From assembly GCF_003344865.1 (NCBI RefSeq), contig NZ_CP031166.1, positions 62,001 through 126,000 of the forward strand: 64,000 nt of DNA, read 5' to 3'. Shown here piece by piece: positions 8,333-40,244 of this stretch. The notes beneath the pieces were generated by a model. It was not told where the DNA came from. It saw nothing but the letters and a program-made list of their open reading frames with translations, and did not search any database. How positions within the stretch are numbered: position 1 is the first letter of the stretch; each line of letters opens with the position of its first letter. Source of the stretch: Euzebya pacifica. GTDB taxonomy: Bacteria > Actinomycetota > Nitriliruptoria > Euzebyales > Euzebyaceae. The position numbers were made by a program, and so were the translations under genes.

Positions 8333-8366
8333 CGCCACCAAGACGTAGTGCTAAGGTGTGTAGCAC
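8329..8366 (+). promoter_or_regulatory. Promoter with 19-bp GTGCTA-N7-TAGCAC operator
   Basis: TTGACG (8329-8334), 17-bp spacer, TAAGGT (8352-8357). The palindrome GTGCTAAGGTGTGTAGCAC (8348-8366) covers the -10 box, so a bound protein would block RNA polymerase. One of nine such sites in the window. About 180 nt of untranslated leader separate it from ATG 8546. Confidence 0.75.
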
Positions 8367-8545
8367 ACGGCGACTGTCGCGCCGCGCCACCGACACCCCA
8401 CGCGCCCCGGAGCACGGACGGGTGGTGGCGAAAGCCAGCAGGCCGGCCACCCACACGAACGCACACGGACCTCCCTCGTCGGGCGGGCCGCGCGGTCAAC
8501 GGGTCCGGGGACCCCGACGACGCGCAGCCCGACAGGAGACGAACG

Positions 8546-9574
8546 ATGTCCGACAGCACCCGCACGACCGTGGCCACCTACCGCCTTCCCGGCCACGACC
8601 GCATCCACACCGTCCTCGCCGAACGGATCGACCGCGGCAACGGCACCGTCCACCACGAGGTGCGCGACGCTGACACTGGTGACGGCACATGGGCATCCAA
8701 CCCGCCCGTGTACGCCGACGCCGTCAAGCTCGTCGAGTTCCTCACGTCCGGCGGGAAGCCGTCGAAGGCCGCCAAGCAGGCGATCAAGGACGCCGCCCGC
8801 AGCGTGCAGGCCGTCACCGGCCTGCCCTACGCCACAGCCAGGCAGGTCGTCACCGAGGCCCGCCACGACCTGATCCCCCACGGCGACCGGCCCGTCGCCG
8901 ACTGCCACCCGGTGCTGGCTCAGAACGACGACGGGGCCACATGGGCCGAATGGGTCGACCTGCTCATCGACGCCCACCTCGCCATGGACGGCACCGACCT
9001 GGACCAGATGGCAGGCGGCGTCATCGTGCTGCTCGCACAGACCGGCCTCCCCGTCCGACTCGGTGCCCGAGTCGAGGTCGTACTCGACGGGGAACCGTGG
9101 GAACTCGACGAGATGTTCCCCGGCGAGCTCGTCGCAGCCGGTGGGCACCGCGCCGACCTTCCCGAGTGGGGGATCAACCCCAACCCGGCCAAGGTCGTGG
9201 CTGCCATCACCGACCGGTTCGGGTTCGACCGCCGCACCGCCGAGGTCCGTCCGTTCCGTCCGGTGGACCTCCGCCAGCCCGCCGTCTTTCGAGGGGACCA
9301 CCGCGAGGGCAACGACCCCGGTCTTGCGAACTGGCACACCGGCCTGCTCGGCACCGACGAACGCCACACCGACACCGGGGAGGTCCTGCGGGTCTACGAC
9401 CTCCGTGACGGCGACTACGGCCAAACGATCCGCGACGGCCTCCGTGCCCGGTACGGCGACGCGGCGTTCGCGTGGGAGCGGACCGTGACCGGTGTGCTGG
9501 TCGATGGCGGTCCGGCCGACAGCCGGGAGGAGGCCCGAGCCGCCGCCGACGCGGCCGTGCGGACCGCGCACTGA
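8546..9574 (+). CDS. Hypothetical protein, 342 aa
   Basis: Unrecognised. Start ATG 8546 has a clear AGGAG 8 nt upstream and lies behind the operator-type promoter at 8329-8366. The protein is soluble and acidic; segments include KPSKAAKQAIKDAARSVQAV, LPYATARQVVTEARHDLIP and VYDLRDGDYGQTIRDGLRAR. It converges with the minus-strand HEPN-like gene, 22 bp apart. Because it belongs to the GTGCTA operator regulon it is likely a core gene of the element. Confidence 0.75.
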   Translation: MSDSTRTTVATYRLPGHDRIHTVLAERIDRGNGTVHHEVRDADTGDGTWASNPPVYADAVKLVEFLTSGGKPSKAAKQAIKDAARSVQAVTGLPYATARQVVTEARHDLIPHGDRPVADCHPVLAQNDDGATWAEWVDLLIDAHLAMDGTDLDQMAGGVIVLLAQTGLPVRLGARVEVVLDGEPWELDEMFPGELVAAGGHRADLPEWGINPNPAKVVAAITDRFGFDRRTAEVRPFRPVDLRQPAVFRGDHREGNDPGLANWHTGLLGTDERHTDTGEVLRVYDLRDGDYGQTIRDGLRARYGDAAFAWERTVTGVLVDGGPADSREEARAAADAAVRTAH

Positions 9575-9596
9575 CCGGGACCGGTTCGGCGCGAGT

Positions 9597-10952
9597 TCAG
9601 CCGGTCTCCGCGCGGAGTCGCGCGACCACTTCCTCATCGATCCAGACGAGCGGGGTCCAAGGTCCGCCTGACAACGGATCGGTTCCCCTTGATCCGAGCG
9701 TTGCGACGGTGTTGGCCACGGAACGCATGACCACGTTGCGGTACTTCGACCAGCCCTTGTGACGGTCGCCGGTGACCACGTCACGGGGGCCGATACCCCC
9801 CAGTCGCTGGTGCAGCTTCGTGGTCCACCAAGTGAGGGCTTCCCCGCCCACCGGACCAGCCGCGTCGAGGGCATCGGTCAACCGGTTGGCATTGGACGGG
9901 GTCGGGCTGCCGAACAGGTCGGCGGCGCACCCGACCACCCGTGCCACGCCGTCGGGTTCCCCGAACCACGTCCGCAGGCCGACCGAGGCCTGCTCCGCCG
10001 CGTTGAAGGCGCACCAGGCCGCATGGGACCGCGTGGCCAGTCCGGACCGATCCAGTTCGGCGATCAATGACAGCAGCATCGGGCCAAGCACGTCGGTCAC
10101 GCGGATCGCGGCGGCCCGGCCCTGTCCGGCGAGGATCGCCGAATGGGTGCGGGTGACCGCGAAGTCGCGGGCGTCCCCGGCACTGGCGAAGGGTTGCAGC
10201 AAACCGTTGGCGGCGACCTGCCACATCCACGCCCGGAGGTCGACCGCGAGCCCATGACGGGCCACCTGGGATTCGTCCACCCGGACAACCGCACCACGTT
10301 CCAAGGCGTCCTTGAGGTGCTTGACGCCCGCGTTGCGGCCCTTCCCGATCCACCGGTCCAAGTCCGTGACGGACCACGAGTCGGCCTCGAGTCCGTCGAT
10401 GACCGCCCGTGCGATCGTGAGATCGGCGTCCACCCGTGACGCCAGCCCTTCCAATGCTGCCAAGGCTTCCGGAGGGGGGTCGTCGGCCGTCTCCAGGGTT
10501 TCTTCCACGGCCCGACCGATGCGGTCGGCGGCGTCGGGCCCCGTGAACCGGGACTTGCTGTCGATCTCCTCCTCCACGTCGGCGCCAGCGAGTCCGCACA
10601 GGCCGATGACGCACTCCTTCGCCGCGGCCACGTCCTCGGCGGTCAATGGGGCCCAGTGCGCCCACCGGTTGCGGATGTCCAGGAGGCGGGTGACGGAGTC
10701 GCGGTAGGAGCCCTCGGGGTCGCTGCCAACGGCGAACCAGTCCCAGTGCCGGCGCAAGGCCTGCATCAGCACGTACGGGTCGTAAGGGTCGTAGTCCGGG
10801 CCGCCCGAGGGTCTCAGCAGGCGGTTCCACCAGCGGGTCCCTGCCTGGTCCGACATGACCCTGACGACCCACGGCTGGACATGGTCACCGAACACCCGGA
10901 GGCAGACGCTGATCCTGAGGTGGGCGAGCAAGTCGTCATTGGTGGGGTCCAT
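9597..10952 (-). CDS. Swt1/HEPN-like domain protein, 451 aa
   Basis: The N-terminal 110 residues contain DPYVLMQALRRHWDWF and then VTRLLDIRNRWAHWAPLTAEDV. The R-N-R-W-A-H core (R-x4-6-H type) with a following helical pair resembles the HEPN domain of Swt1-like proteins, which can be RNA-cleaving or scaffold domains in defence systems. The remaining 340 residues are helical and unrecognised, ending VWIDEEVVARLRAETG. Start ATG 10952 has no strong Shine-Dalgarno. It stands alone on the minus strand. The HEPN call rests on one motif and its setting. Confidence 0.6.
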   Translation of the reverse strand: MDPTNDDLLAHLRISVCLRVFGDHVQPWVVRVMSDQAGTRWWNRLLRPSGGPDYDPYDPYVLMQALRRHWDWFAVGSDPEGSYRDSVTRLLDIRNRWAHWAPLTAEDVAAAKECVIGLCGLAGADVEEEIDSKSRFTGPDAADRIGRAVEETLETADDPPPEALAALEGLASRVDADLTIARAVIDGLEADSWSVTDLDRWIGKGRNAGVKHLKDALERGAVVRVDESQVARHGLAVDLRAWMWQVAANGLLQPFASAGDARDFAVTRTHSAILAGQGRAAAIRVTDVLGPMLLSLIAELDRSGLATRSHAAWCAFNAAEQASVGLRTWFGEPDGVARVVGCAADLFGSPTPSNANRLTDALDAAGPVGGEALTWWTTKLHQRLGGIGPRDVVTGDRHKGWSKYRNVVMRSVANTVATLGSRGTDPLSGGPWTPLVWIDEEVVARLRAETG

Positions 10953-11182
10953 GTCGTTGAGGATGGCACGCGCCGCAGACTCCCCGGCGTACCGCTTGGC
11001 GTGCGACCAACGAGCAGCCAGGCCGGATGTTGGGCGGACGATCGTCCGCCGCCAGGAACCCGCCGGGTCCGCGACACCCGACGGCCGAAAGCACGGCTTG
11101 ACCTGCGGAAACGACGGTCCTGGTGGGGGTGCCGGTCCCGTGCTGTCGAGCTGCGCTCAGGGCGGTGATCATCCAGGGACAC
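10953..11182. other. Intergenic region between the HEPN-like gene and whiB
   Basis: No coding frame on either strand keeps the third-position bias over this stretch. It holds the upstream region of the minus-strand HEPN-like gene and, at its right edge, the start of the whiB promoter. I see no repeat or hairpin of note. Confidence 0.5.
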
Positions 11183-11217
11183 TTGGCGATATAGTGAAGC
11201 GCTACGTAACGTAGCAA
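11183..11217 (+). promoter_or_regulatory. whiB promoter region with GCGCTA-N7-TAGCAA operator
   Basis: TTGGCG (11183-11188) and TAACGT (11207-11212) are 18 bp apart. The imperfect 19-bp palindrome GCGCTACGTAACGTAGCAA (11199-11217) sits over the -10. A second possible -10, TATAGT (11190-11195), lacks a good -35. Same operator family as at 8348, 17014 and others. Confidence 0.6.
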
Positions 11218-11258
11218 TCAGTAGAACATTGTCCGCCTCACCGGGAGCAGCACCCGAG

Positions 11259-11885
11259 ATGACCACCGCAACCATCCCCTCGGCGATCGCCACGATCGAA
11301 CCGATCGTCGTCGACCCCAACGGGCACTGGACCCAGCTGTCCGCATGCAACGGCCACAGCGACCTGATGTACCCCGACGACATCGCCTACGACGCCGACC
11401 TCAACCCCATCTACGTCCTTGACGACAACGGCGACATGCAGCCCATCGCCGTCGACTGGGCCCCCGCGCTGGCCATCTGCGACGGCTGCCCCGTCCGCAA
11501 CGAGTGCCTCGACCAAGCCATGCAGACCGGCGACGTCTTCTGGGGCGTCCTGGGCGGCATGACGCCCGAGGCCCGCCGCAAGTACCGGGCCTCCATGCGC
11601 GAGCACGTCATCCCGCACGGCACCGTCACCGGCTACACCAACTACGACTGCCGCTGCGACCCCTGCATGGACGCCTACCGGGCCGCCACCGCCGACCGCG
11701 AGAACCCGATCGTCGCCGCCGAGATCCTCGACATCGTCGCCAACGCCCGCGCCAACACCCCGCAAGAACTGGCCGCCGAGACCGCCGACGACGAACTCGC
11801 CCGACTCATCGCCGAGCAGTCCGCCGATGACGGCACCGAGCCCGAAACCATCCCCCTGGACGAACTCGACCCCCAGACCATCTGA
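11259..11885 (+). CDS. WhiB-family iron-sulfur transcriptional regulator
   Basis: WhiB-like proteins hold a 4Fe-4S cluster and modulate sigma-A-dependent transcription in actinobacteria and their phages. This 208-aa protein has the four cluster cysteines (C30, then C74-x2-C77-x5-C83 in AICDGCPVRNECLDQAM) and the turn WGVLGG (95-100) followed by MTPEARRKYR. A tail HGTVTGYTNYDCRCDPCMDA (about 120-139) adds three cysteines, an arrangement common in mobile-element WhiB proteins. A TTG at 11229 is a possible alternative start; ATG 11259 is preferred. Its own promoter carries the recurrent operator, making it a candidate member or controller of that regulon. A strong terminator follows. Confidence 0.93.
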   Translation: MTTATIPSAIATIEPIVVDPNGHWTQLSACNGHSDLMYPDDIAYDADLNPIYVLDDNGDMQPIAVDWAPALAICDGCPVRNECLDQAMQTGDVFWGVLGGMTPEARRKYRASMREHVIPHGTVTGYTNYDCRCDPCMDAYRAATADRENPIVAAEILDIVANARANTPQELAAETADDELARLIAEQSADDGTEPETIPLDELDPQTI

Positions 11886-11896
11886 CCCCCACGACC

Positions 11897-11935
11897 TTCG
11901 GCCCGCCCCGGGATGCTGCACCGGGGCGGGCCGAA
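11897..11935 (+). terminator. Strong hairpin terminator after whiB
   Basis: Perfect 15-bp inverted repeat (TTCGGCCCGCCCCGG / CCGGGGCGGGCCGAA) around a 9-nt loop, beginning 11 bp after the whiB stop. There is no T-run, as is usual for high-GC actinobacterial terminators. Confidence 0.8.
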
Positions 11936-11967
11936 CCCATCCCGCCGCCGACCATCACCACCCGAAG

Positions 11968-12276
11968 ATGCACCGCCTCGCCGACCTCACCCGACCCCTC
12001 GTCTCGCGTGACGTGCTCGACATGCTGCCACGGCTGCGGCCGAACCCATCCCGCCGTTCCGGCACCGGCGACACCGCAGCCGACATCGAGCGCGCCGGCC
12101 GACGGATCGGACCGTTCGAGGCCACCAGAGCCGACATGTACCGAGTCCTGGAAGCCGCAGGCGGTCGGGGATGGCCGGGCACGGCCGTCCTCGACGACGT
12201 CGCCGACCGGCTCATCGCCGAGGGCCTCTGGACCGAGGTCCGTGAGACCGCGGACCCGCTGCGCAGCGCCTCGTGA
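11968..12276 (+). CDS. Small hypothetical protein, 102 aa
   Basis: ATG 11968 lies 32 bp after the whiB terminator. Unrecognised; contains DVLDMLPRLRPNP and GWPGTAVLDDVADRLIAEGLW, which resemble a short helical, possibly winged-helix-like fold. Its stop overlaps the GTG of the CPBP protease gene (GTGA at 12273-12276), so the two are probably coupled. Confidence 0.6.
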   Translation: MHRLADLTRPLVSRDVLDMLPRLRPNPSRRSGTGDTAADIERAGRRIGPFEATRADMYRVLEAAGGRGWPGTAVLDDVADRLIAEGLWTEVRETADPLRSAS

Positions 12277-12959
12277 CCGACCCGGCCCCGCGCCAACTCG
12301 CGTTGCCGTCATGGTCCGCCGGCGACGTGGCAGTCGCGACCATGGCATGCGTGATCGCCCTGTCGTTCGTCCTCGGTGCCGACCTCGGACCCCAAGCGGG
12401 CCTGCTCGCCGTCAGCGGCACCGCCGGCCTCGGGGCCCTCACCGGCGCCGCCCGTCACGGCCGCCACGGGCTCCGCGGTCTCATCGGCCGCGTCCCCGAC
12501 CTCGCCGACCTCGGCGCGTCGGTCCGGCTCGGGGTCATCGCCTGGATGGCACTCACTTTCGTCCTGGGCGGTGCCGCGATCGGCATCGAGCAACTCCTGG
12601 ACATCGAGATCCTCAACACCAACCAGGACGACATCGCCCGGCTTGCCGGCGGCACCGGGCCCGGCCCGGCCGCGGTTGCCGTCTCGATCATGCTCGCCGC
12701 CCCCATCTGCGAAGAGCTGCTGTTCAGGGGCGTGCTGCTCGGATGGGCGGCCAACCGGTGGGGCCGGACCGTCGGCACCGTCGTGTCCGCCGCCGTGTTC
12801 GGCGCCGTCCACGCCCAGCCCTACACGGGGCTCGTCACCGCGCTGCTCGGGGCTGCCCTTGCCCGCATGACGTTGGACCGCGGCGGGGTGCTGCCGGCCG
12901 TCGTGGCGCACGCCACGTTCAACACCATCGGGTTCGCCTTCATCCGCCTCACGCCCTGA
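12273..12959 (+). CDS. CPBP-family intramembrane metalloprotease (CAAX/Abi type)
   Basis: A 228-aa polytopic membrane protein with at least five hydrophobic segments. The family's active site is present: CEELLFRGVLLGW (EExxxR motif, about residues 146-152), FGAVH (second metal-binding His) and AHATFN (third). Family members cleave prenylated or other membrane peptides; in bacteria many serve bacteriocin immunity or signalling. GTG start overlaps the upstream stop. Complete by length and motifs; the substrate cannot be inferred. Confidence 0.9.
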   Translation: MTDPAPRQLALPSWSAGDVAVATMACVIALSFVLGADLGPQAGLLAVSGTAGLGALTGAARHGRHGLRGLIGRVPDLADLGASVRLGVIAWMALTFVLGGAAIGIEQLLDIEILNTNQDDIARLAGGTGPGPAAVAVSIMLAAPICEELLFRGVLLGWAANRWGRTVGTVVSAAVFGAVHAQPYTGLVTALLGAALARMTLDRGGVLPAVVAHATFNTIGFAFIRLTP

Positions 12960-12976: not shown

Positions 12977-13006
12977 TTGCTAGAACTGCTAGCACTGCGG
13001 TATGGT
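12977..13006 (+). promoter_or_regulatory. Leaderless promoter with TTGCTA-N7-TAGCAC operator
   Basis: TTGCTA (12977-12982) as -35, 18-bp spacer, TATGGT (13001-13006) as -10. The ATG at 13013 lies where transcription should start, implying a leaderless mRNA. The operator palindrome occupies 12977-12995, between and over the -35, unlike the -10-overlapping sites elsewhere. Confidence 0.7.
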
Positions 13007-13012: not shown

Positions 13013-13432
13013 ATGAGCAGCACCAGGGCGGACGCCCACGACCGGTACAGCGCAGCCGCCCGCATCGTCCTCAACGGCTACAGGCAGATGGCCGCCGCCG
13101 CCGAGACCATCCTCGCAGAAGACCTCGCCGACCTCCTCGACGGGGAGGAGGCCCGCGCCTCCGGGATCACCGGCATCACCGAGGTGACCATCCGCATCGA
13201 ATGGTCCGGCAGCGAATCAACCGACGAGACCGTCACCGCGGTCCGCAACAGCCACGGCGCCGACGTCGCCAACGCCGTGCTCGCCCAACAGGACGGCGCA
13301 ACCATCGCCGAATGGCTCACCGAGCAGATCCTCGACCTGCCCGGCCGCACCTACCTCGTCGACGCACTCCGCGAAGCCGACGAACTGCCCACCGACATCG
13401 TCATCACCGTCCCCCAGAACGCGACCGCCTGA
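13013..13432 (+). CDS. Hypothetical protein, 139 aa
   Basis: First gene of an operon of small proteins. No Shine-Dalgarno is present; the -10 box ends 6 nt before the ATG, so leaderless translation is expected. Unrecognised; the N-terminal half is helical (ARIVLNGYRQMAAAAETILA), followed by beta strands (VTIRIEWSGSES) and helices. Its stop overlaps the next start (TGATG). Confidence 0.7.
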   Translation: MSSTRADAHDRYSAAARIVLNGYRQMAAAAETILAEDLADLLDGEEARASGITGITEVTIRIEWSGSESTDETVTAVRNSHGADVANAVLAQQDGATIAEWLTEQILDLPGRTYLVDALREADELPTDIVITVPQNATA

Positions 13433-16995: not shown

Positions 16996-17032
16996 TTGAC
17001 ACCCACCGATAGAGTGCTAGGATAAATAGCAC
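16996..17032 (+). promoter_or_regulatory. Promoter with perfect GTGCTA-N7-TAGCAC operator
   Basis: TTGACA (16996-17001), 16-bp spacer, TAGGAT (17018-17023). The operator GTGCTAGGATAAATAGCAC (17014-17032) is flanked by A and T, extending symmetry to 21 bp. It overlaps the -10 and drives the operon beginning at 17059. Confidence 0.8.
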
Positions 17033-17058
17033 TTAGGTCCTTGGGAAGGGAGATCATG

Positions 17059-17439
17059 ATGAGGGCGACAGTTCCACCCCACACCGGCTGCGACGTGGTC
17101 ACCCACGGCTGCATCGACGCTGCCGACCGCGACGCCCCCGTTCGCACTCGCTGCTTCGCCTGCGGCCTGACCGCCTGCCGGGGCTGCACCGTCATCACCG
17201 CGTACTTCCCGCGGTACGGCACCCGACGGGTCTGTTTCCACTGCCTCGTCACCCACGACCTGTGGACCGACGAGCAGGTCGACTCCTTCATCGCCTCCCG
17301 CGCCTTCGGGCAGGAGGCAGTCGGCGCGCCGCCCGGTGGGTTCCGCTGCAACCGGCCGCTCCGCCGCCGTGACGGCAACTGCGCCCAGCAGGTCCACGCG
17401 CCCGGCATCCCCTGCGCGACCCACGGGACGTCCCGATGA
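17059..17439 (+). CDS. Zinc-finger-like protein with a C-terminal CAAGH-type motif, 126 aa
   Basis: First gene behind the operator promoter. Two consecutive ATGs (17056, 17059) follow AAGGGAG; 17059 has the better spacing. Cysteine pairs CFACGLTACRGC and VCFHC around a beta hairpin suggest a treble-clef or zinc-ribbon fold. The last 30 residues (CNRPLRRRDGNCAQQ, then HAPGIPCATHG) repeat the spacing of the Cys module found at the N-terminus of the CAAGH proteins elsewhere in the window. Stop overlaps the next ATG. Confidence 0.7.
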   Translation: MRATVPPHTGCDVVTHGCIDAADRDAPVRTRCFACGLTACRGCTVITAYFPRYGTRRVCFHCLVTHDLWTDEQVDSFIASRAFGQEAVGAPPGGFRCNRPLRRRDGNCAQQVHAPGIPCATHGTSR

Positions 17440-18815: not shown

Positions 18816-19064
18816 ATGACCACGACCGCCCCCCAACGCGCCGACGTCGAGCAGCGGTTCAACGTCGCCCTCGACGGCGTCACCGACGTCCTGCTCGACG
18901 CACTGGACGACGCCGCCTACGACGAGGCCACCGTCCACCTCGATGGCATCAGGGCCGTTCTGTGCCGCGCCCTGGGCGGCCACGACATGGTCCTCGACCA
19001 GTGCGGACGGCCCGAGCACGCCGCCTGCATCACCTGTGGTGAACCGGCCGTCACCGCGTCATGA
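18816..19064 (+). CDS. Small hypothetical protein, 82 aa
   Basis: ATG 18816, 42 bp after the previous gene. Helical (DVEQRFNVALDGVTDVLLDA) with a C-terminal HAACITCGEPAV cysteine pair. Its stop overlaps the next start (ATGA at 19061). Unrecognised. Confidence 0.6.
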   Translation: MTTTAPQRADVEQRFNVALDGVTDVLLDALDDAAYDEATVHLDGIRAVLCRALGGHDMVLDQCGRPEHAACITCGEPAVTAS

Positions 19065-19489
19065 GCGGCGGCCCGTTCGGCACCGGCGACCGGGCCGTGT
19101 TCCTCGACGGCATCGACCCCGGCTTCAACACCGACCTGGTCGACCCTGACGCCTGCGCCACCGAAGCGGCACGCCTCGGCCACGACCGTCCCGAGGACCT
19201 CATGGTCGCCCACTACGCCGGGCAGCGGTGGATGCGCGGCGAGGAGACGGCGGCACTCAACATGCTGCACCGCCACGGGTTCGACGTGACCGCCTGCTAT
19301 CGGGTGATCGCCGCCGGCCTCGGCCCGCAGCAGGCGCTCGGAGCGCTCATGGCCAAGTGGCAGCCGACCGGTGCCCTCGCTGGCGAGGTCGGCCGGAGCA
19401 CCTTGACCCAACCGCACACAAGTGCTAGTAGTAGTAGCGAACTATGGTGGGTCGGTTGGGGATACCGGCCAGGGAAGGGACGAACATGA
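19061..19489 (+). CDS. Hypothetical protein, 142 aa, whose 3' end runs through the next promoter
   Basis: ATG overlaps the previous stop. The first 113 or so residues (DRAVFLDGIDPGFNTDLVDP, EETAALNMLHRHGFDVTACY) look normal. The last 29 (TLTQPHTSASSSSELWW, then a short tail) are encoded by the promoter and operator at 19403-19440 and lack codon bias. Its TGA overlaps the ATG of the following gene. Either the gene lost its original stop or the promoter evolved inside it. Confidence 0.6.
   Translation: MSGGPFGTGDRAVFLDGIDPGFNTDLVDPDACATEAARLGHDRPEDLMVAHYAGQRWMRGEETAALNMLHRHGFDVTACYRVIAAGLGPQQALGALMAKWQPTGALAGEVGRSTLTQPHTSASSSSELWWVGWGYRPGKGRT
19403..19440 (+). promoter_or_regulatory. Promoter with GTGCTA-N7-TAGCGA operator inside an upstream ORF
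   Basis: TTGACC (19403-19408), 17-bp spacer, TAGTAG (19426-19431). Operator GTGCTAGTAGTAGTAGCGA at 19422-19440 overlaps the -10. It drives the gene at 19486. Confidence 0.7.
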
Positions 19490-19755
19490 ACCGCAACGCC
19501 ACGGCAGCCCCCGTCGAGATCCACCGCGACGACGAGGAAGGCCAGATGTCGAACTGGCAGAACGGCACCCTGCAGGGCTGCGGCCCCGCCACCGCCGTCA
19601 CCATCCAGACCCACGTCGACGGCGTCGACGGCACCCCCGATGCCGTCGCCGCAGAACTCAACCGACTCCTCACCGCCGCGTCAGCCGCCACCGGCGGGCA
19701 GGTCACGTTCACCGTTGTCGTCGGCCCAACGATCGACGCACTGACGGCCCCGTAG
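19486..19755 (+). CDS. Hypothetical protein, 89 aa
   Basis: ATG 19486 with AGGGAAGGGA upstream. Unrecognised; acidic, with GPATAVTIQTHVDGVDGTPD and DAVAAELNRLLTAASAATGG, an alpha/beta sequence resembling a small ferredoxin-like fold. First gene behind the 19403 promoter; the gene at 19838 follows after 82 bp. Confidence 0.65.
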   Translation: MNRNATAAPVEIHRDDEEGQMSNWQNGTLQGCGPATAVTIQTHVDGVDGTPDAVAAELNRLLTAASAATGGQVTFTVVVGPTIDALTAP

Positions 19756-22780: not shown

Positions 22781-22813
22781 TTGCTTGCAGTGTTAGCACA
22801 ACGGCGGTAGGGT
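22781..22813 (+). promoter_or_regulatory. Promoter with TTGCTT-N7-TAGCAC operator
   Basis: TTGCAG (22785-22790), 17-bp spacer, TAGGGT (22808-22813). The palindrome TTGCTTGCAGTGTTAGCAC (22781-22799) covers the -35. It precedes a leader shared with the gene at 24546. Confidence 0.65.
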
Positions 22814-23009: not shown

Positions 23010-24275
23010 ATGTCAGACCTCGCATCCCTCCACGCCCAGAAGGCCCTGCTCGAACGGCGCATCCACGCCGCAGCGGCCAGCGACCTCCTCGCCGACCTGA
23101 TCGAGGCCTTCGAGGCCTTCGACGTCCACCCCGCCACCGTCACGGTGACCTTCGACACCGAGGACGACGGCTCCGAGGTCCCGCTCGGCTGGGTGGAGAT
23201 CACCGCCGATGACGACGACGCCGACATCGGCTTCGCCACCGAAGAGGTCCAGGGCCTGTTCAACGCATGGCAATCCTTCCTCGCGTTCGGGGACAGCGCC
23301 ATAGCCCTGTACGGCCGGGACGTCCTGTTCGGCAAGTCCTTCGACCTCCACCAGATCGAACGGCAGCCGTTGGCCGACCTGTCCGACGTCCGCCCGGCCT
23401 CGGAACCGTTGTCCAGCGATCCGAACAGCACGGGCCCCATCGCCGCCGTTTCCGATGTCGCACTTCGCCCCGCCGGGCCAACTCCCAGCCGGCACGGCCA
23501 GTTGGCGCTTCACCCCACCGATGCCAACGGCCTCCCCGCCCATGAGGTCCGCCCGCAGGCGCCCCGCACCGTCTGGGTCGCCGTCAACGGCGGCACCGTG
23601 TCGTGGGCGCCGACGCGGGAGGAGGCCGGGCCGGGGGCGGCATGCACCACGCTCGCCGAACCGCGCGACCCGGCACGGCAGGTGGCCGGCGCCGACCGCT
23701 ACACCGGCAGCGATGACCCGTCTGCCGAGTTCCCAACGCCGGTGTCGTGCCCCGCGTGCGGCCTCATCTGCGCCACATCCGCTCGTCTGCTCGGCCACGA
23801 CTGCGACCCCTATCCGATGCCCGACGGCAGCAACGTCGCCCCGTTCGGACACATGTCCGAGGGGGCCCGCCGGGTGGCGGTGAAGGCCATCAAGGCGCTG
23901 CTGCCCGACCTGACCCACCAGCAGGCCGTCAACGCCGCAGACGGCGACCTGGGCGCGATCGACCCCACCGACCGGTCGGCTGTGACCGCGATCACCGAGG
24001 CGTGCACGTCCGGTCGGGTGACCTGCCGGTCGGTGGTCCACCTCATCGGCCGTCAAGGTGCCGACGCCCGGATCGAGGGCCGCGGCGACCGGATCCTTGT
24101 CCACGGCCGCGCCGGCGCGGTAGAGGCCGTCGAGGGGGCTTGGCAGACGGCCATGATCAGCCGGACGCTGCGCACGGCGGCGGCGGTCCCGACCGGTCTG
24201 CCCCCCTACGGCGGCGACCCGTTGCGCGCCGCGAAGCGACTCGCGCGGATCGCCCGCGACGGCCAGCCCGGCTGA
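23010..24275 (+). CDS. Hypothetical protein, 421 aa, paralogue of the 24546 product at its C-terminus
   Basis: ATG 23010 behind GGAAGGAACACCG. The N-terminal part is helical then acidic (EEVQGLFNAWQSFLAFGDSA). A middle segment has FPTPVSCPACGLICATSARL (a C-x2-C-x3-C knuckle) and LGHDC. The C-terminal 130 residues (ARRVAVKAIKALLPDLTHQQ, AVNAADGDLGAIDPTDRSAV) align with those of the next gene (KKAIKAIKTAFPALNHQAAV). Both genes have the same operator and leader. Function unknown; the shared C-terminal domain is probably the functional core. Confidence 0.75.
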   Translation: MSDLASLHAQKALLERRIHAAAASDLLADLIEAFEAFDVHPATVTVTFDTEDDGSEVPLGWVEITADDDDADIGFATEEVQGLFNAWQSFLAFGDSAIALYGRDVLFGKSFDLHQIERQPLADLSDVRPASEPLSSDPNSTGPIAAVSDVALRPAGPTPSRHGQLALHPTDANGLPAHEVRPQAPRTVWVAVNGGTVSWAPTREEAGPGAACTTLAEPRDPARQVAGADRYTGSDDPSAEFPTPVSCPACGLICATSARLLGHDCDPYPMPDGSNVAPFGHMSEGARRVAVKAIKALLPDLTHQQAVNAADGDLGAIDPTDRSAVTAITEACTSGRVTCRSVVHLIGRQGADARIEGRGDRILVHGRAGAVEAVEGAWQTAMISRTLRTAAAVPTGLPPYGGDPLRAAKRLARIARDGQPG

Positions 24276-24320: not shown

Positions 24321-24353
24321 GTGCTAGACATGATAGCGATACGGTGATAGGCT
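24321..24353 (+). promoter_or_regulatory. Promoter with GTGCTA-N7-TAGCGA operator
   Basis: TAGACA (24325-24330), 17-bp spacer, TAGGCT (24348-24353). Operator GTGCTAGACATGATAGCGA (24321-24339) covers the -35, as at 22781. It precedes leader copy 2. Confidence 0.7.
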
Positions 24354-24545: not shown

Positions 24546-26207
24546 ATGAGCACCGTGACCACCCAGCAGTGGGCCCTCACCATCAGCCACGCCCACGGCA
24601 TCGACGCCTTCGTGTTCGACACCCAGGACGAGGGCCTCGACCACCTCCACGCCTACGTCACCGAATGGTGGGCCGAGGAACTCAACAGCCCGATCCCCAC
24701 CGATCGCGCCGAAGCGATCGAGCGGTACTTCTTGGTCGTTGACGGCGAGGACTACGCCCTCGCGCCGGTCATCCCCACCCCCAAGGCCCGCCCCGACACC
24801 AGCAGCGACGCCGGGAAGGCCCGCCGCGACTTGCGTGCCGCCCAGTCCCGCGCCATCGACACCGCATTGGCTGACTGGACCGCCGTGTTCGCCGGCGACA
24901 TGAGAGCCGCGTTCCCCGACCTGCCCCGCATCGCCGCAATCGACGTCGGCTTCCACGACGACATCGACGGCTGGTTCACCGACGTCGCCGCCATCCGGTT
25001 CGCCGACGGCACCGACCACGCCGACGACGGCCTGCTCGACACCGCAGGCGAGATCGCCAAGAACGTCGACTCGTACTGGACGTGGGCCGACGTCGTCCAC
25101 GACGACCCCTTCGCCGAGCACAAGTACGGCATCAGCGGGCAGGCCGTCACCGTGACGATCCCCGACGCCGGCCCCGGACGCCCGACCGACTCCGATGACC
25201 CGGACCGGCCGGCAGGACCGACCGGATGGATGCCGGCGCTCACCGAGGCCTACCGGGAGAACTACCCCAACCAGACCGTCGTTGCCGTCCGCGTCGTCCC
25301 GACCGCCGACGGCCCCCAGATCGTGGAAGCGCGGACCTCCGACGGGATGACCACCACCGGTGCGGTCTGCGACTTCGGGAACGATTCGATCTTCGAGCAC
25401 CCGTCGTTCACCAAGTGGGCCGCCGACACCCTCAACGGGCCGGACGGCACCTGGGCGGCCCTCACCGACCCCGCCGACGAACCGGAGGAGTGCTGCGCGG
25501 AGTGCGGCCAGCCGATGTTCACCGGCGACGACGGGGTCGCCCACCACTTCGGCGGCACCGTCGGCCTTGACGACATCGACCACGACACCGACGCCGATCA
25601 CGTCCCCGTCGCCGACAGCACCTACGTGCCCGTCACGGCCCCTCGGGGCCGGTCGATCGTGCCGGCCGAACCGGGAACGACCTGCGACACCTGCCACGCC
25701 CCCGCGACGGTGTGCGACCTCGACGACGACGACGCCCCCCACGCCTGCGACGACCACCGCCCCGACCGCCCCACCGTCCGCCCCTCGGGGAAGGCGCGGA
25801 AGAAGGCCATCAAGGCCATCAAGACCGCCTTCCCGGCTCTCAACCACCAGGCCGCCGTCAACGTCGTCGACCGTGACGACCTCGCCACGACCGACCCGGC
25901 AAGCCACAGCGACGTCCGTGCCGTCATCGACGGCCACACCGCACCCGCGGTCCCGGCCCGCGCCGCAGCCGCGATGCTGCGCCTCCTCGGACACGACCCC
26001 CGCCACGTCGGCACCAACCGTCCCGCCCGGCTCACCGCGACCCGGCCCGACGGCCGGGTCACCATCGACATCAACGACACCGACTGGTCCATCGCCACCC
26101 TCACCACCGCGACCCGCACCGACACCGTTCCAACCGGGCTGCACGCGAAGGGCAGCAGCCCACTGGACGCCGCACTCACCGTCCTACGGTTGCTGAAGGT
26201 CATGTGA
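24546..26207 (+). CDS. Hypothetical protein, 553 aa, paralogue of the 23010 product at its C-terminus
   Basis: ATG 24546 behind GGAAGGAACTCCG. Acidic N-terminal half (FDDIDGWFTDV-like segments near FHDDIDGWFTDVAAIRFADG), a zinc-like pair set (ECCAECGQPMF and TTCDTCHAPATVCD), then KARKKAIKAIKTAFPALNHQ and DLATTDPASHSDVRAVIDGH, matching the end of the preceding gene. The stop TGA at 26205-26207 is followed in the same frame by 38 more well-biased codons to 26324. Function unknown; likely the same process as its paralogue. Confidence 0.75.
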   Translation: MSTVTTQQWALTISHAHGIDAFVFDTQDEGLDHLHAYVTEWWAEELNSPIPTDRAEAIERYFLVVDGEDYALAPVIPTPKARPDTSSDAGKARRDLRAAQSRAIDTALADWTAVFAGDMRAAFPDLPRIAAIDVGFHDDIDGWFTDVAAIRFADGTDHADDGLLDTAGEIAKNVDSYWTWADVVHDDPFAEHKYGISGQAVTVTIPDAGPGRPTDSDDPDRPAGPTGWMPALTEAYRENYPNQTVVAVRVVPTADGPQIVEARTSDGMTTTGAVCDFGNDSIFEHPSFTKWAADTLNGPDGTWAALTDPADEPEECCAECGQPMFTGDDGVAHHFGGTVGLDDIDHDTDADHVPVADSTYVPVTAPRGRSIVPAEPGTTCDTCHAPATVCDLDDDDAPHACDDHRPDRPTVRPSGKARKKAIKAIKTAFPALNHQAAVNVVDRDDLATTDPASHSDVRAVIDGHTAPAVPARAAAAMLRLLGHDPRHVGTNRPARLTATRPDGRVTIDINDTDWSIATLTTATRTDTVPTGLHAKGSSPLDAALTVLRLLKVM

Positions 26208-34544: not shown

Positions 34545-36713
34545 ATGGACGATCCGATGACCCCCACCGCCGCACCGCACCAAGGCCGCCGCCCGACCGT
34601 GGCCGGCTGCTTCAGTGGCATCGGTGGGCTCGAACTCGGCTTCCAACGAGCCGGGTTCCGCAGCCTGTGGTGTGCCGAGATCGACGCCAACCCGTCTGCG
34701 GTGTTGGCTGCCCGGTTCCCTGACACGCCGAACCTGGGCGACGTCCGCGAGATCGGCTCGCCGGCCGCCCCGGACGTGCTCGTCGGCGGGTTCCCCTGCT
34801 TCCCCGCCGGGACGTTGGTGGACACCGCCGACGGCTTCCGGCCGATCGAGACGATTCGCGAGGGCGATCGGGTTCGTACCCACATGGGCCGCTACATGCC
34901 GGTCGTGCAGCTCATGAAGCGGGACGCGACCGACACCCTCAACGTCAAGGTCATGGGCGCTCCAGAGTTCACCACGACAGCGGAGCACCCGTTCTACGTC
35001 CGTCGGAAGGGGCAGACGTGGGACCCGTCCATAGGCGTGAAGGGCCACTACCGCCGCGTGTGGTCCGACCCGGAGTGGGTGGAGGCCGGACTGCTCGACA
35101 AGGACTGCTTCGTCGGGTTCCAGCTCGACACCCCCGACCCCGACCAGGAACCGATCGGTCCTGCACTCGGCTACGTGATTGGCCGCTGGCTCGGCGACGG
35201 ATGGGTGCGCGACTCGCGTCGACCCCAGAACCTGACGGGCAGGCGAGGCTCACGTGTCGAGTCGCGCTGGTGGAACGTGTTCGTCTGCTGTGACCCGTCG
35301 GAGGCCGACGTACTGCGGTCCGCGATCACCGCAGCCGGTTTCGCCACCGGCAAGGCCCAGAGGGTGGGGGTGACCGTCAGGTTCCGCATCGGGTCCAAGG
35401 ATCTCTGCAAGCTCCTGTCGGGCTTCGGCCGACACGCCCACGGCAAGCGGATCCCGGGATGGGTGTACCGGCTCCCGATTGAGGACCAGCAGGCGATCTG
35501 GCAGGGCTGGGTCGACGCCGACGGCTACCGGGAGACCAAGAACCGTCCATCCCCGCAGGTGAAGGCGACGACGGTCAGCGAGCAGCTCGCTCACGGGATG
35601 GCCAGGATCGCCCGGAACGTCCACCGGCGGGCCGTGTCGATCCACAAGGTCGAGACCGCCGACACCACCGTCATCGAAGTCCGCACGGTCAACCAGCGCG
35701 ACTGGTACCAGGTCGTGCTGCCGACCCGGAACCGGGAGGCCTTCGTCGAAGGCGACTGGGTCTGGGCACCTGTTCGCACCATCACCGAGGCCGACCCGAC
35801 CGAGGTGTTCAACATCGGTGTGCAGGACGACGAGTCCTACACCGCCTACGGCATCACCGTGCACAACTGTCAGGACCTGAGCCGCGGGAACGCCGAGCGG
35901 CGCGGCATCAAGGAAGGAACGCGCAGTGGCCTCTTCTTCGACTTCGCCCGGATCGCCGACACAACCCGAGCTCGATGGGTTGTTATCGAGAACGTCGAGG
36001 GACTCCTCGACTCCAACGGCGGCAGGGATCTCGCCACCGTCATCGGGGTCCTGGCCGACCTCGGGTACGTGGGGGGATGGCGGCTGGTCGACGCACGCAG
36101 CTTCGGAGTACCCCAGGCCCGACGACGGCTGCTTGTTGTCGGACATCGTGGAGGATCGGACGCCGTCCGACGCGCACTTCTTGAGCCCGAAGCACGCGAG
36201 TGGGGTGCTCGGCCGAGGGTCGCGGCTTGGCGGTCGGCTACCCAAGGAGTTGACCGAGGCACTCGAACGGGCGGCGGCCAGCTCGGGTTCGACCTGAGCG
36301 GTGGCGTGGAACCAGAGCCCGTTCGGGTGTGGCGCAAGGCCGGGCGGGCCCAGACGTCAGAGGACGCCGAGACGTGGGAACCTGGCGGCTACGCCAACAC
36401 CCTGAACCTGTACGACACCGCCGTCGCGAGAACAGTCCATCTGGTGATCGACCCCGCATCCGGGCGGCCGCGCCGGCTCACCGAGGTGGAGGCGGAGAGG
36501 TTGCAAGGGTTCCCGGACGGGTGGACGGATGTGGAGGTCCGCGGCCGGCCGATGTCGTCGACGCGCCGCTACGAGATGTGCGGCAATGCGGTGCCGGTCC
36601 CGATGGCCGCCTGGATCGCCTCGAGGATCCTTGCCGAACTCCCCAGGACCTACGGGCCCCCGATCGGGGACCTGGTCGCCGAACACCGCCAAGCCACCCC
36701 GGTCATCGCCTGA
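34545..36713 (+). CDS. DNA cytosine-5 methyltransferase precursor interrupted by an intein
   Basis: C5-methyltransferase motifs: AGCFSGIGGLELGFQ (I), GGFP-C-QDLS (IV, split), WVVIENVEGLL (VI), GVPQARRRLLVVG (VIII), and CGNAVPVPMAAWIA (X) with RLTEVEAERLQGFPDGW before it. Spliced length is about 365 aa (84 + 281), normal for the family. A 357-aa intein (34797-35867) separates GGFP from the catalytic Cys, which is the +1 residue of the C-extein. The enzyme cannot be active until splicing releases CQDLS next to GGFP. Start ATG 34545 is a choice among several; the frame is open back to a GTG at 34464. No restriction partner is adjacent. Confidence 0.92.
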   Translation: MDDPMTPTAAPHQGRRPTVAGCFSGIGGLELGFQRAGFRSLWCAEIDANPSAVLAARFPDTPNLGDVREIGSPAAPDVLVGGFPCFPAGTLVDTADGFRPIETIREGDRVRTHMGRYMPVVQLMKRDATDTLNVKVMGAPEFTTTAEHPFYVRRKGQTWDPSIGVKGHYRRVWSDPEWVEAGLLDKDCFVGFQLDTPDPDQEPIGPALGYVIGRWLGDGWVRDSRRPQNLTGRRGSRVESRWWNVFVCCDPSEADVLRSAITAAGFATGKAQRVGVTVRFRIGSKDLCKLLSGFGRHAHGKRIPGWVYRLPIEDQQAIWQGWVDADGYRETKNRPSPQVKATTVSEQLAHGMARIARNVHRRAVSIHKVETADTTVIEVRTVNQRDWYQVVLPTRNREAFVEGDWVWAPVRTITEADPTEVFNIGVQDDESYTAYGITVHNCQDLSRGNAERRGIKEGTRSGLFFDFARIADTTRARWVVIENVEGLLDSNGGRDLATVIGVLADLGYVGGWRLVDARSFGVPQARRRLLVVGHRGGSDAVRRALLEPEAREWGARPRVAAWRSATQGVDRGTRTGGGQLGFDLSGGVEPEPVRVWRKAGRAQTSEDAETWEPGGYANTLNLYDTAVARTVHLVIDPASGRPRRLTEVEAERLQGFPDGWTDVEVRGRPMSSTRRYEMCGNAVPVPMAAWIASRILAELPRTYGPPIGDLVAEHRQATPVIA
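34797..35867 (+). other. Intein with LAGLIDADG homing endonuclease, 357 aa
   Basis: Begins CFPAGTLVDTADGFRPIETI (block A, Cys1) and ends VFNIGVQDDESYTAYGITVHN (blocks F and G, ending His-Asn), followed by Cys+1, so all splicing residues are present. Block B is TTTAEHPFYV (T-x2-H). Two LAGLIDADG-like motifs, LGYVIGRWLGDG and IWQGWVDADGY, show a full homing endonuclease. Codon usage is less biased than in the exteins, consistent with horizontal arrival. The insertion point is the most conserved spot of the host gene, as is usual for inteins. The lengths between blocks are normal, so it is probably functional. Confidence 0.93.
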
Positions 36714-37063
36714 TCGGGCGACAGCAGGCCGCGCCGTGGCGGTCATCCCAGCACGCGCACGTACACCTGCCGAGGATCGAGTTCCGACACACCCAGCACC
36801 GGCGCGAGCCTGGGGCCTACGACGTTGCCGTCATAGCACGGGTCCCATTCGCGTACCCGGTCGGGATCACTTCCGACCCGTCAGAGTTGACCACGACGGT
36901 GTCCCCGTCCGCCGCTCCGTTCGGCGCTCCGCCCGGTGAGGTCGATCACGGGGGCGTGGTAGCGCATGGGGTCGACGGCAGCGGCGGACGTCGACGTGGA
37001 TGGGGGCGGGCGGGGTTGTCACATGGCTCCGGAATGGTGGGGGAGTGGATGACCAGTCCGTCC
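36714..37063. other. Intergenic region between the methyltransferase and the 37064 promoter
   Basis: About 350 bp without a convincing gene: codon bias is absent in all frames. A half-operator TAGCAC occurs at 36836 but without its partner half. Nothing else is seen. Confidence 0.5.
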
Positions 37064-37101
37064 TTGTGCCACACGACCACAAGTGCTAGGAGAAATAGCA
37101 C
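37064..37101 (+). promoter_or_regulatory. Promoter with perfect GTGCTA-N7-TAGCAC operator
   Basis: TTGTGC (37064-37069), 17-bp spacer, TAGGAG (37087-37092). Operator GTGCTAGGAGAAATAGCAC at 37083-37101 overlaps the -10. It differs from the operator at 17014 at a single spacer position. Confidence 0.75.
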
Positions 37102-37124
37102 ACAACCAAGCGATGGAGGGACCG

Positions 37125-37763
37125 ATGACCGTGCAGCCCGACCGAGCCCCCTACGAGGCCACCATGTCCGACGGGTCGCCGAACCTGGGCTCCTACGAGT
37201 TCGCCGGCTACGTGGGCGCCGTCACCAAGGCCCGCGCGATCCTCGTCGAGTGCGGCACCGACCCCGCCGACGTGGACCCCAAGATCGTCCGCGCCCTCGC
37301 CGGCGTCATCGCCGACATGGCCGACCGCGTCCAGCACCGCCTCCGCGCCAAGGTCATCACCGCACGCCGTCTCGACATCGCCGCCGACAACGCCGCCCGC
37401 AACGGCCAGGAGTTCGGCGAGGCCGACGCCGCCGCCGTCCGCGCCAAGGTGTGGGAGTCGGCACTGGTGGACCGACAGGGCGGCAGCCACACCCGCGCCC
37501 GGTCCTGCGTCTACACCGCGATGGAGGACTTCCCCTTCCCCGCCGACGCCGACGCGCAGGCCGTCGCCGACTGGACCGAACGGGTCGAGAACCGCGCGTT
37601 CGGACTGCTGGTCATCGCCGTGGACCTCGCCTACGACGACCGGTCCCACGAGACCTTCGAGGACCGCGTCTCCGCCCTCGGTGGACTGCTGGCCCCCACA
37701 CCCGCCGACGCCGACGAGCAGGACGCACCGGCCGCCGAGCAGGCCGCCACCGCCGACGCCTGA
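37125..37763 (+). CDS. Hypothetical protein, 212 aa
   Basis: ATG 37125 with GGAGGG upstream, 30 nt after the predicted transcript start. Unrecognised; helical throughout (TKARAILVECGTDPADVDPK, ALAGVIADMADRVQHRLRAK), acidic Ala-rich tail. A hairpin terminator follows, so it is a single-gene unit of the operator regulon. Could be DNA-associated, but no helix-turn-helix is evident to me. Confidence 0.7.
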   Translation: MTVQPDRAPYEATMSDGSPNLGSYEFAGYVGAVTKARAILVECGTDPADVDPKIVRALAGVIADMADRVQHRLRAKVITARRLDIAADNAARNGQEFGEADAAAVRAKVWESALVDRQGGSHTRARSCVYTAMEDFPFPADADAQAVADWTERVENRAFGLLVIAVDLAYDDRSHETFEDRVSALGGLLAPTPADADEQDAPAAEQAATADA

Positions 37764-37770
37764 CCCGACC

Positions 37771-37808
37771 TGGCCGCCACCGGGCCCCTTCCCTCCGGTG
37801 GCCGGCCA
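37771..37808 (+). terminator. Hairpin terminator
   Basis: TGGCCGCCACCGG pairs with CCGGTGGCCGGCCA around an 11-nt loop (one bulge), starting 8 bp after the stop at 37763. No T-run. Confidence 0.65.
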
Positions 37809-37892
37809 AGACTGTCACACCTCCCGCCCACACTGGCCACGGCCCACACCACCCAACGACGCCCTCCCGCGGCGCAGCCCGGCCCCACCGAC

Positions 37893-38546
37893 ATGAACAC
37901 CCACACGAACACCGCCCCCGTCACCACGGGCGGCGACACCGCAACGACCGCCGACGCCATGCTGGACATGGCCGGGTTCGCCATGGCCTTCGGTGCGATC
38001 CAACGGGCCACGCTGCTGCCCGACGGCACCACCCGCGAGGACGATGCCACCCACACGGTGATGCTCGGCATGATCGCCTGCTCGCTGGCGGCCAGGTTCT
38101 TCCCTGCCCTCGACGTCGGCAACGTAGCCCAGTACGCCTTGGTCCACGACGCGCCAGAGCGGTACGCCGGTGACGTCGACACGCTGACTGCGACGGAGGA
38201 CGAACGGGCCGCCAAGGCCGCCGACGAAGCCGCCGCGACCGACCGGATCGATGAGGAGTTCGGGCAGACGCTGCCGTGGCTGCCCAACACGATCCGGGCC
38301 TACGAATCGATGGCCGACCCCGAGGCACGGTTCGTCAAGGCCGTCGACAAGCTCCTGCCGTTGCTTACCGAGGTTCTCTCTGGCATGGCCGGGACACGCC
38401 GACGGGGGGTGGACGCCGCCGCGCTCGCCACCCACTACGACCGTCAGGTCGACGAGATCGCCCTGTACGCCTCTGACTTCCCGGTCGTGTTCGAGGTCCG
38501 CCGTCTCCTGGTCGCCGAAACCCTCCGCATCCTCGCCGCGGGCTGA
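37893..38546 (+). CDS. HD-domain hydrolase (YfbR/HD_3-like nucleotidase type), 217 aa
   Basis: The metal ligands of the HD superfamily are in order: DDATHTVMLGMIA (His), LVHDAPERYAGD (His-Asp) and ARFVKAVDKLLPLL (Asp). The E after HDAP and the spacing match YfbR-like phosphohydrolases, which remove phosphate from deoxynucleoside monophosphates. ATG 37893 is preceded by a Pro/Ala-coding stretch and no strong Shine-Dalgarno. Phages and plasmids use such enzymes to tune nucleotide pools; that is inference here. Confidence 0.85.
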   Translation: MNTHTNTAPVTTGGDTATTADAMLDMAGFAMAFGAIQRATLLPDGTTREDDATHTVMLGMIACSLAARFFPALDVGNVAQYALVHDAPERYAGDVDTLTATEDERAAKAADEAAATDRIDEEFGQTLPWLPNTIRAYESMADPEARFVKAVDKLLPLLTEVLSGMAGTRRRGVDAAALATHYDRQVDEIALYASDFPVVFEVRRLLVAETLRILAAG

Positions 38547-38726
38547 GCGCCGCCAGCACACCTGCACGGGTCTCGAAGCGACTCGGAAACGCCACGAACT
38601 GGCAGCGGTGGGCTCGTAGCAACCCGTTTTGCAGTGCAGGGAGGGCATCGGGTAGGACCGGGACTGCGGCTTCCCTCAACAGGTGGGTGCCGCAGGCGTC
38701 GTCGATGTACCGATGGGGAGAGTTCT

Positions 38727-40154
38727 GTGGCGTTCATGCCGACCGAGGAGCAGTTGGCGTTCCGTGACGCGGTGGAGTTCACGAAGCCGCCTCCGAAGGG
38801 GATGGCCTACATCTACGTGGTGAAGTCGGAGGGGTGCGGTTGCCCGATCTATGTCGGGGAGACGACGACGAGCCTGCGGGCACGGTTCACTGGGCACGTT
38901 CGCGACAAGGTTCGTCGGATCCGCGAATACCCCCACCAGGACCACCACCGAGACGTGCAGGCCGTTACGATCCACCTCGAAGCGGTCGTTGCTTCGCGCG
39001 GTCGACGCGATGTCGAGGCGGCGGTGATCGCCCGGTACGCAGCCGACGGCTGGCATCTGGTGAACGACTCCCGGTACGACCCGTCGATGGTCGAGGCGAC
39101 CTTGGCAACCATCCGCATCGATGGTTGCGCGGTCGCGACGGAGGACGCCCGTGAGAGGTGGCGGGCACACGTCGCCGAGCAGGAGGCCGCCTCGACAGCC
39201 CTGTCCGGCTACTTGGAAGGGCACGGGGTGTCGTGGGACGGACGGCCGAACGAGGCGGTTGTGTTTGCGGTCTGGGCTTACCAGCGCGTCCACGGTGGGC
39301 TGCCCGACGCGGCTCTCCCGCTTGTGATCCGCCACGGGCACATGGAGTACCGCGGTCGGCCGCTGTCCAAAGTCCTCGAACTGCCCGAGGCCACGCTGCA
39401 AGGCACCCTTGACTACTTCGCCGACCATGAGGCGCGTGGTTGGTCGACCCACATGGGTACATCGGCGGCCATGGCGCTCGGATGGCTCGGGGAGGCCAAC
39501 GGAGGGAACGTCCACCGCTACGACGAGGCCATCGATCGGCTCATGCGGGAGGCCGACAACGGATTCTGGCAGGACATTCAGTCAGGTGATGCGGACCCCG
39601 ACCCGGTCCCTTCACGAAGCACCGCGATGTCGCGGGACTTCCTGCGCGATTACATGGGCGTCGGGTCGGTGACCGGACCGACGTTGAACACCGACGGGTT
39701 CCACCGGCAGTGGTGGGCCTGCGATGGACTGGGGATCGGGATCCGCACCGCGCCGACCCCCAGGGTGACGTGGTGGGGAACGGTCGGGGACGACGGCACC
39801 GAGTACGGGTCGGACTTCCTGCAGAACGTCCATCATCCGCTCGAGGTCTCGGTGCTCCGAGACGACTGGGCCCTGCATTGGGAGAAGGTCGCCGAACTCG
39901 CGACAGAACTGCGCGACGCGGCCGGGACGCGTGACCAGGCACGCTGGACCGCCGCGGTCAGACGGGTCTGCCTCGGCGTCGAAGACGATGTGATGTGGCT
40001 CGGGTGGAGGGGCGGTTTCGCTGTCCTCCTGGCCTGCGTCGAGTTCGGCTGGGGCACGGAGCGGTGGCAGGCTGCTCGCGGTCCTGCGGGGGTGATTGCG
40101 GGCCTGTCGGCCGATCATGGGTTCACGGCCCCTGTGATCCCACGGACCAAATGA
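38727..40154 (+). CDS. GIY-YIG domain protein, 475 aa
   Basis: Residues 27-110 hold a GIY-YIG nuclease-like domain: YIYVVKSEGCGCPIYVGETT, then SLRARFTGHVR (Arg), later RDVEAAVIARYAADGWHLVN (Glu and the terminal N). The Y-I-Y and Y-V-G pair, the Arg and the Glu are all present. The remaining 360 residues are unrecognised. GTG 38727 is chosen for the GGGGAG at 7 nt; ATG 38736 is the alternative. Codon bias is weaker and third positions more varied than in the neighbours, suggesting recent transfer. It may be a homing-type or defence nuclease. Confidence 0.75.
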   Translation: MAFMPTEEQLAFRDAVEFTKPPPKGMAYIYVVKSEGCGCPIYVGETTTSLRARFTGHVRDKVRRIREYPHQDHHRDVQAVTIHLEAVVASRGRRDVEAAVIARYAADGWHLVNDSRYDPSMVEATLATIRIDGCAVATEDARERWRAHVAEQEAASTALSGYLEGHGVSWDGRPNEAVVFAVWAYQRVHGGLPDAALPLVIRHGHMEYRGRPLSKVLELPEATLQGTLDYFADHEARGWSTHMGTSAAMALGWLGEANGGNVHRYDEAIDRLMREADNGFWQDIQSGDADPDPVPSRSTAMSRDFLRDYMGVGSVTGPTLNTDGFHRQWWACDGLGIGIRTAPTPRVTWWGTVGDDGTEYGSDFLQNVHHPLEVSVLRDDWALHWEKVAELATELRDAAGTRDQARWTAAVRRVCLGVEDDVMWLGWRGGFAVLLACVEFGWGTERWQAARGPAGVIAGLSADHGFTAPVIPRTK

Positions 40155-40206
40155 TGGTGGTGCAGGGACGATGATCCGGGGGCGTCCCACGGTCGCTCGG
40201 CACCAC

Positions 40207-40244
40207 TTGCCAGTGCCGGACCGGAGTGCTAAGGTCGGTAGCAA
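40207..40244 (+). promoter_or_regulatory. Promoter with GTGCTA-N7-TAGCAA operator
   Basis: TTGCCA (40207-40212), 17-bp spacer, TAAGGT (40230-40235). Operator GTGCTAAGGTCGGTAGCAA at 40226-40244 overlaps the -10. The mRNA would carry an untranslated leader of about 190 nt (to 40435) with a hairpin GGCGCAGTAGCCCTTAGCGCC near 40248; that leader is not similar to those at 22820 and 24362. Confidence 0.75.

Follow-up and report, generated by a model that had tools for sequence, protein, structure and literature searches.

Introduction

Promoters for replication, maintenance and transfer on the IncP-1 plasmids (RK2/RP4) are controlled plasmid-wide by KorA and KorB through repeated palindromic operators (PMC11790492, PMC3199767), and KorB is described as serving both partition and repression (PMC11790492, PMC5577506). 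Zygotic induction has been studied for RP4 (PMC7314908). Regulators of the YtrA subfamily of GntR proteins mostly control just one operon, with ABC transporters (PMC4494728). Few plasmids, chiefly small proteobacterial ones, have a global repressor network that is known in detail. Among phages, mycobacteriophage L5 has one element-encoded repressor that silences many of its own promoters; its stoperator sites are asymmetric and are found outside promoters too.

Here we consider a window of 64,000 nucleotides, positions 62001-126000 of C2, the 571,580-bp second replicon of Euzebya pacifica, whose 6.37-Mb genome consists of two contigs, the other being the chromosome C1 (5,799,875 bases). A preliminary description of the window had reported nine promoters sharing the palindrome GTGCTA-N7-TAGCAC and had read them as a plasmid-wide repressor regulon like that of KorA/KorB. 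The extension to the whole genome strongly supports a replicon-wide regulon, for which repression is the probable mode, and leaves the likeness to KorA/KorB standing as an analogy only.

Results

Genes on C2 (n = 595) were called with a codon-usage script written for this analysis, and promoter calls likewise came from simple scripts; putative operons are co-directional genes with gaps of at most 120 bp. Sites were counted as exact patterns and with a symmetric matrix built from intergenic C2 sites (threshold 13 bits or more). Because this matrix was trained and scanned on one sequence, C2, the exact-pattern counts serve as the independent evidence. The genome collection searched contained only three genus-mates and one further member of the family.

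All nine coordinates first reported for the window were correct, and they are the full set, as the matrix matches there of at least 13 bits are exactly these nine: three perfect sites, two with one mismatch and four with two. For the three perfect sites the expectation was 0.00 in 100 dinucleotide shuffles. The sites and the WhiB-family gene are as follows.

8348..8366, + strand: operator GTGCTAAGGTGTGTAGCAC, no mismatches; −10 TAAGGT inside, TTGACG 19 bp upstream; precedes gene 8546-9574
11199..11217, strand not assigned: operator GCGCTACGTAACGTAGCAA, two mismatches; in the divergent region between 9597-10952 (−) and whiB 11259-11885 (+)
11259..11885, + strand: WhiB-family gene (Pfam Whib, E=1.8e-9), downstream of the 11199 operator
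12977..12995, + strand: operator TTGCTAGAACTGCTAGCAC, one mismatch; TTGCTA as −35, TATGGT 18 bp downstream; gene 13013-13432 behind it is near-leaderless
17014..17032, + strand: operator GTGCTAGGATAAATAGCAC, no mismatches; TTGACA-16-TAGGAT with the −10 inside; precedes gene 17056-17439, then a long run of small genes
19422..19440, + strand: operator GTGCTAGTAGTAGTAGCGA, two mismatches; overlaps the −10; precedes 19486-19755 and, as a correction to the preliminary description, runs into the 3′ end of 19061-19489, the called gene before it
22781..22799, + strand: operator TTGCTTGCAGTGTTAGCAC, two mismatches; on the −35 side; precedes 23010-24275
24321..24339, + strand: operator GTGCTAGACATGATAGCGA, two mismatches; TAGACA inside as −35, TAGGCT 17 bp downstream; precedes 24546-26207
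37083..37101, + strand: operator GTGCTAGGAGAAATAGCAC, no mismatches; over the −10; precedes 37125-37763
40226..40244, + strand: operator GTGCTAAGGTCGGTAGCAA, one mismatch; TTGCCA upstream, TAAGGT inside; precedes 40436-42166

The palindrome family is real, is not due to chance, is replicon-specific and is about six times larger than the window showed. Across C2, GTGCTA-N7-TAGCAC is present in 9, 23 and 15 copies at zero, one and two mismatches, as against 0, 0-1 and 1-12 copies in six first-order Markov shuffles. The 32 sites with at most one mismatch lie almost all at promoters, and a scan of the 5.8-Mb chromosome at the same stringency returned none; many near-identical operators at the promoters of an element, with none on the chromosome of its host, are what generally marks a replicon-wide regulon. 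Spacers of 3-6 or 8-11 bp gave at most one match at this level, versus 32 for 7 bp, and an unbiased search of C2 for gapped palindromes ranked TGCTA-N7 first by a wide margin. With the matrix, 56 sites were found on C2, compared with about 0.2 per order-2 shuffle, all with a 7-bp spacer and with the consensus WWGTGCTAnnAWTnnTAGCACWW, in which G3, C4 and T5 are almost invariant. Fully 53 of the 56 are intergenic on a replicon whose non-coding share is 14% (p about 5e-42). Divergent gaps hold 22 of them and tandem gaps 31, and none of the 56 falls in a convergent gap, though 17% of the intergenic DNA is of that kind.

Mismatches between the half-sites are one-sided and uncompensated (e.g. G/T at position 1, eight times in each direction), which points to independent half-site contacts and thus to a site for a protein dimer rather than an RNA stem; an RNA hairpin is ruled out on the same ground. 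A mobile repeat is also ruled out, as the flanks differ and the common part measures just 19-23 bp.

The placement of the sites within promoters largely follows what had been described for the window. The three sites assigned there to the −35 (12977, 22781 and 24321) are confirmed, and of the six assigned to the −10, those at 8348, 17014, 19422, 37083 and 40226 do overlap a −10, with the TTG-type −35 some 16-18 bp ahead of it; 11199 is ambiguous. Replicon-wide, with each site read in the direction of the gene behind it, 34 sites have a TTGACA-like −35 (at least four matches) starting 17-21 bp upstream together with a −10-like hexamer inside, against a background of 0.6%. This hexamer occupies site positions 5-10, giving a −35/−10 spacing of roughly 16-18 bp, and the central AWT of the consensus thus partly doubles as the end of the −10. 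About 10 further sites contain or overlap a −35 (TTGCTA or TAGACA), with TANNNT 17-19 bp further on.

The putative operons behind the sites take in about 185 of the 595 called genes, most of them without a recognised family. Those with an assignment include the following.

DnaG primase, DnaB helicase and NAD-dependent ligase
SbcD/SbcC and a C5-methylase
nicotinate phosphoribosyltransferase (NAD salvage)
a helicase, in an operon with apparent DNA methylase and RusA genes (these members identified from their sequence)
a MoxR-like ATPase with a DUF2201 VWA protein
C2:160130-167610: Eco57I-type methylase and SNF2/PLD helicase pair, possibly a phage-defence module; site at C2:159997
an operon of a VirB4-like transfer ATPase
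an EAL protein
WhiB, behind the site at window position 11199, as first described

The absence of sites from cas genes and pilins holds across C2, where neither the cas operon nor the pilus cluster (about 376-430 kb) has any. For the CAAGH genes the same had been claimed and is true within the window, but not of the whole replicon, on which one such gene, at C2:494887, is preceded by a site at a distance of 138 bp. Proteins with the N-terminal CGxxT...CAAGH cysteine/histidine motif are scattered over C2, and at least one (C2:494887-496089) lies behind an operator.

As to its general gene content, C2 has genes for a large part of a replisome (Pol III alpha, DnaG, DnaB, ligase and SSBs), for a class II ribonucleotide reductase and NAD salvage, for a sigma factor and ParA, and for type IV pili and conjugation. 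In the DnaB-like helicase of 1105 aa (C2:545635-548952) the helicase matches are split and there is an insert that begins with Cys, the pattern to be expected of an intein. A different palindrome, GGTGTG-N9-CACACC, is repeated seven times in about 310 bp (C2:556897-557204) downstream of the ParA gene (C2:554788) and a small gene, an arrangement that resembles the iteron array of a centromere or origin; a few single copies are dispersed over C2, one of them at window 63256-63276.

A scan of 66 genomes of the same class yielded only one other genome with a single exact match. This match is followed after 4 bp by a gene for a YtrA-type GntR protein, and relatives of that gene in other Actinobacteria have GTGCTA-N7-TAGCAC or GTTCTA-N7-TAGAAC in the corresponding position. 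Loci with the YtrA palindrome upstream of the GntR gene are L039, L244, L248, L262, L242, L243, L253 and L260. Judged from these sequences, the specificity of this palindrome, GT[G/T]CTA-N7-TAG[C/A]AC, seems to switch between GTGCTA and GTTCTA. Such near-identical palindromes with a 7-bp spacer, directly before YtrA genes, suggest that the geometry works as an autoregulatory operator. The two groups of sites share the 19-bp layout but differ in what they conserve: the YtrA sites keep the outer GT in 26 of 28 and 28 of 28 half-sites and vary at positions 3-4, whereas positions 3-4 on C2 are GC in 112 of 112 half-sites and the outer G is kept in only 63 of 112. An HMM scan of C2 for YtrA gave nothing credible, and on C2 PF00392 picked up only g493, whose 26.0-26.8 bits fall short of the cut-off (27). 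Given the different conserved bases and a C2 devoid of a YtrA protein, we take the C2 regulator to be another protein, whose target is similar.

Related megaplasmids that share the transfer ATPase occur in Arthrobacter, Pseudarthrobacter and Curtobacterium. They have no TGCTA-N7-TAGCA, no 13-bit matrix match in the sequence examined and no comparable palindrome regulon save AT repeats and a weak ACAGA-N1 family; nor did any sister replicon with these sites come to light. An IMG/VR scan returned, among the matches listed, apparently chance matches. Two multi-match contigs, L079 and L092, were rejected as relatives, their sites being about 21 mimics in coding tandem repeats of phage-like DNA with 39% GC, and such repeats call for caution in collection-wide motif scans.

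The C2 sites are not those of the established systems. On C2 there are no OB (TTTAGCSGCTAAA) or OA (GTTTAGCTAAAC) operators and no accepted KorA-family match (g354 reaches 18.2 bits; cut-off 26.7), and KorA/KorB operators were discarded as their identity. The same applies to HrcA/CIRCE, which has the hexamers TAGCAC and GTGCTA but with the order of the half-sites reversed (TTAGCACTC-N9-GAGTGCTAA): neither CIRCE nor TAGCAC-Nx-GTGCTA is present on C2. The half-site had been called unlike the actinobacterial LexA box, and so it is. The host lexA promoter carries the classic box CGAACGTATGTTCG and no such palindrome, which rules out a LexA/SOS regulon; a single CGAAC-N4-GTTCG is present on all of C2, and no S24 repressor was found there.

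The preliminary description had advised looking for a helix-turn-helix gene that is itself controlled through such a site, and the search produced only weak candidates, none of them in the window. The only helix-turn-helix genes found on C2 with a site directly upstream are g556 and g62; g287 and g542 lie further down operons.

C2:518814-519554: g556, C-terminal helix-turn-helix; 16-bit site 5 bp before the start, between g556 and the transfer operon
C2:53530: g62, several helix-turn-helix repeats; site upstream
other weak candidates: g270, g322 (XRE), g493 (weak GntR-like) and g549 (ParB_N)

A homologue search with g556 found none. The single ParB_N protein of C2, g549 (C2:509426-510679), has a promoter outside the 56 matrix matches. 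We grant any one of these six at best a small chance of being the regulator. Two of the leads followed fared poorly: neither g322 nor its homologues have the site, and g309 is a relative of 'mobile mystery protein A'. Searches for relatives of the regulon gene g169 (DUF7715) and for plasmid relatives of g270 found none, PDB sequence searches on the regulator question gave nothing useful, and no relevant literature on the palindrome motif was found.

Discussion

We propose that the palindromes are operators, embedded in promoters, of one dimeric repressor that is probably encoded by C2, dedicated to it and functionally Kor-like, and give this reading a probability of roughly three in four. Repression is inferred most naturally from the overlap of the sites with core promoter elements. 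Two identical half-sites with an invariant GC within TGCTA, their centres about 12 bp apart, would face successive major grooves and so could be contacted by a dimer. At most promoters (TTGAC-N16/18-TANNAT) the left half of the operator and the spacer contain the −10 hexamer, and at others the operator covers the −35; either way, a bound repressor would be expected to exclude RNA polymerase by steric hindrance. One regulator would in this manner keep some 50 promoters in check, and with them as much as a third of the C2 genes, the predicted targets being replication, recombination, NAD-salvage, DNA-modification and transfer genes, with relief perhaps brought about by a signal or by entry into a new cell. 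The operator layout would permit zygotic induction of the kind studied for RP4.

Replicon-wide control via repeated palindromic operators is what C2 would have in common with KorA/KorB. The differences lie in the unrelated operator, the actinobacterial host, the 56 operators and a regulator seen only as weak candidates; RK2 has about a dozen operators, and C2 is about ten times larger than RK2. As with L5, a single element-encoded repressor silencing many of the element's own promoters would be expected for C2, although its sites are palindromic and promoter-embedded, unlike stoperators, and the proteins scanned included no recognisable phage structural ones.

Other readings of the sites deserve consideration. 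The position of the operator varies between −10 and −35, so mixed effects are conceivable, and an activator or dual regulator that switches promoters on, e.g. a MerR-like factor between −35 and −10, could be at work; we think this unlikely, as the dyad lies mostly on or downstream of the −10, which fits blocking, and the normal 16-18 bp spacing would not need untwisting. That a chromosome-encoded regulator, a host GntR or LexA, has captured the C2 promoters is, in our judgement, quite improbable. The host has 12 GntR proteins above the Pfam cut-off, and a YtrA-like GntR at C1:358609 together with the YtrA palindromes of other Actinobacteria speaks for this origin; yet the chromosome lacks the site with at most one mismatch, even at the C1:358609 gene, the YtrA sites conserve other bases, and the host lexA has its own CGAAC-N4-GTTCG.

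There is very little likelihood that the palindromes are primarily partition or architectural sites of a spreading ParB/KorB-like or nucleoid-associated protein, with secondary effects on transcription. C2 does encode the ParB_N protein g549, and KorB both partitions and represses (PMC11790492, PMC5577506). Against this, the sites lie at promoters and avoid convergent gaps, OB is missing, and the ParA gene has the iteron-like GGTGTG-N9-CACACC array of its own. ParB-type sites, to our knowledge, also lack a 7-bp spacer. Least credible of all, to the point of being highly implausible, is that the element is no operator but a promoter signal for the plasmid's sigma-70-family factor g424 (C2:369520-370230): such a factor is encoded and the sites do overlap the −10 and −35, but promoters read by sigma factors are not palindromic, conservation is equal in the two half-sites, the right one of which lies downstream of the −10, and ordinary TTGACA/TANNAT hexamers are also present.

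The promoter-embedded repressor operators that we favour would be new as a regulon and ordinary in principle, a repressor with its operator; the scale and the lack of a recognisable regulator are what is unusual. A more far-reaching picture, which we put forward tentatively and consider rather doubtful, is that of a conjugative megaplasmid whose replisome, recombination, NAD-salvage, DNA-modification and transfer genes, along with more than 100 unknown genes, are subject to a single phage-like master repressor that belongs to a DNA-binding family not yet described, acts at promoter-embedded operators and is released, for example, by zygotic induction.

If our reading is true, there is now a map of 56 operators and about 185 genes under common control on a 571-kb actinobacterial replicon, in a class with little genetics. 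The short operator could be used as bait. Many uncharacterised genes would gain a shared regulatory label, and the timing with which the genes of a megaplasmid are switched on would become testable.
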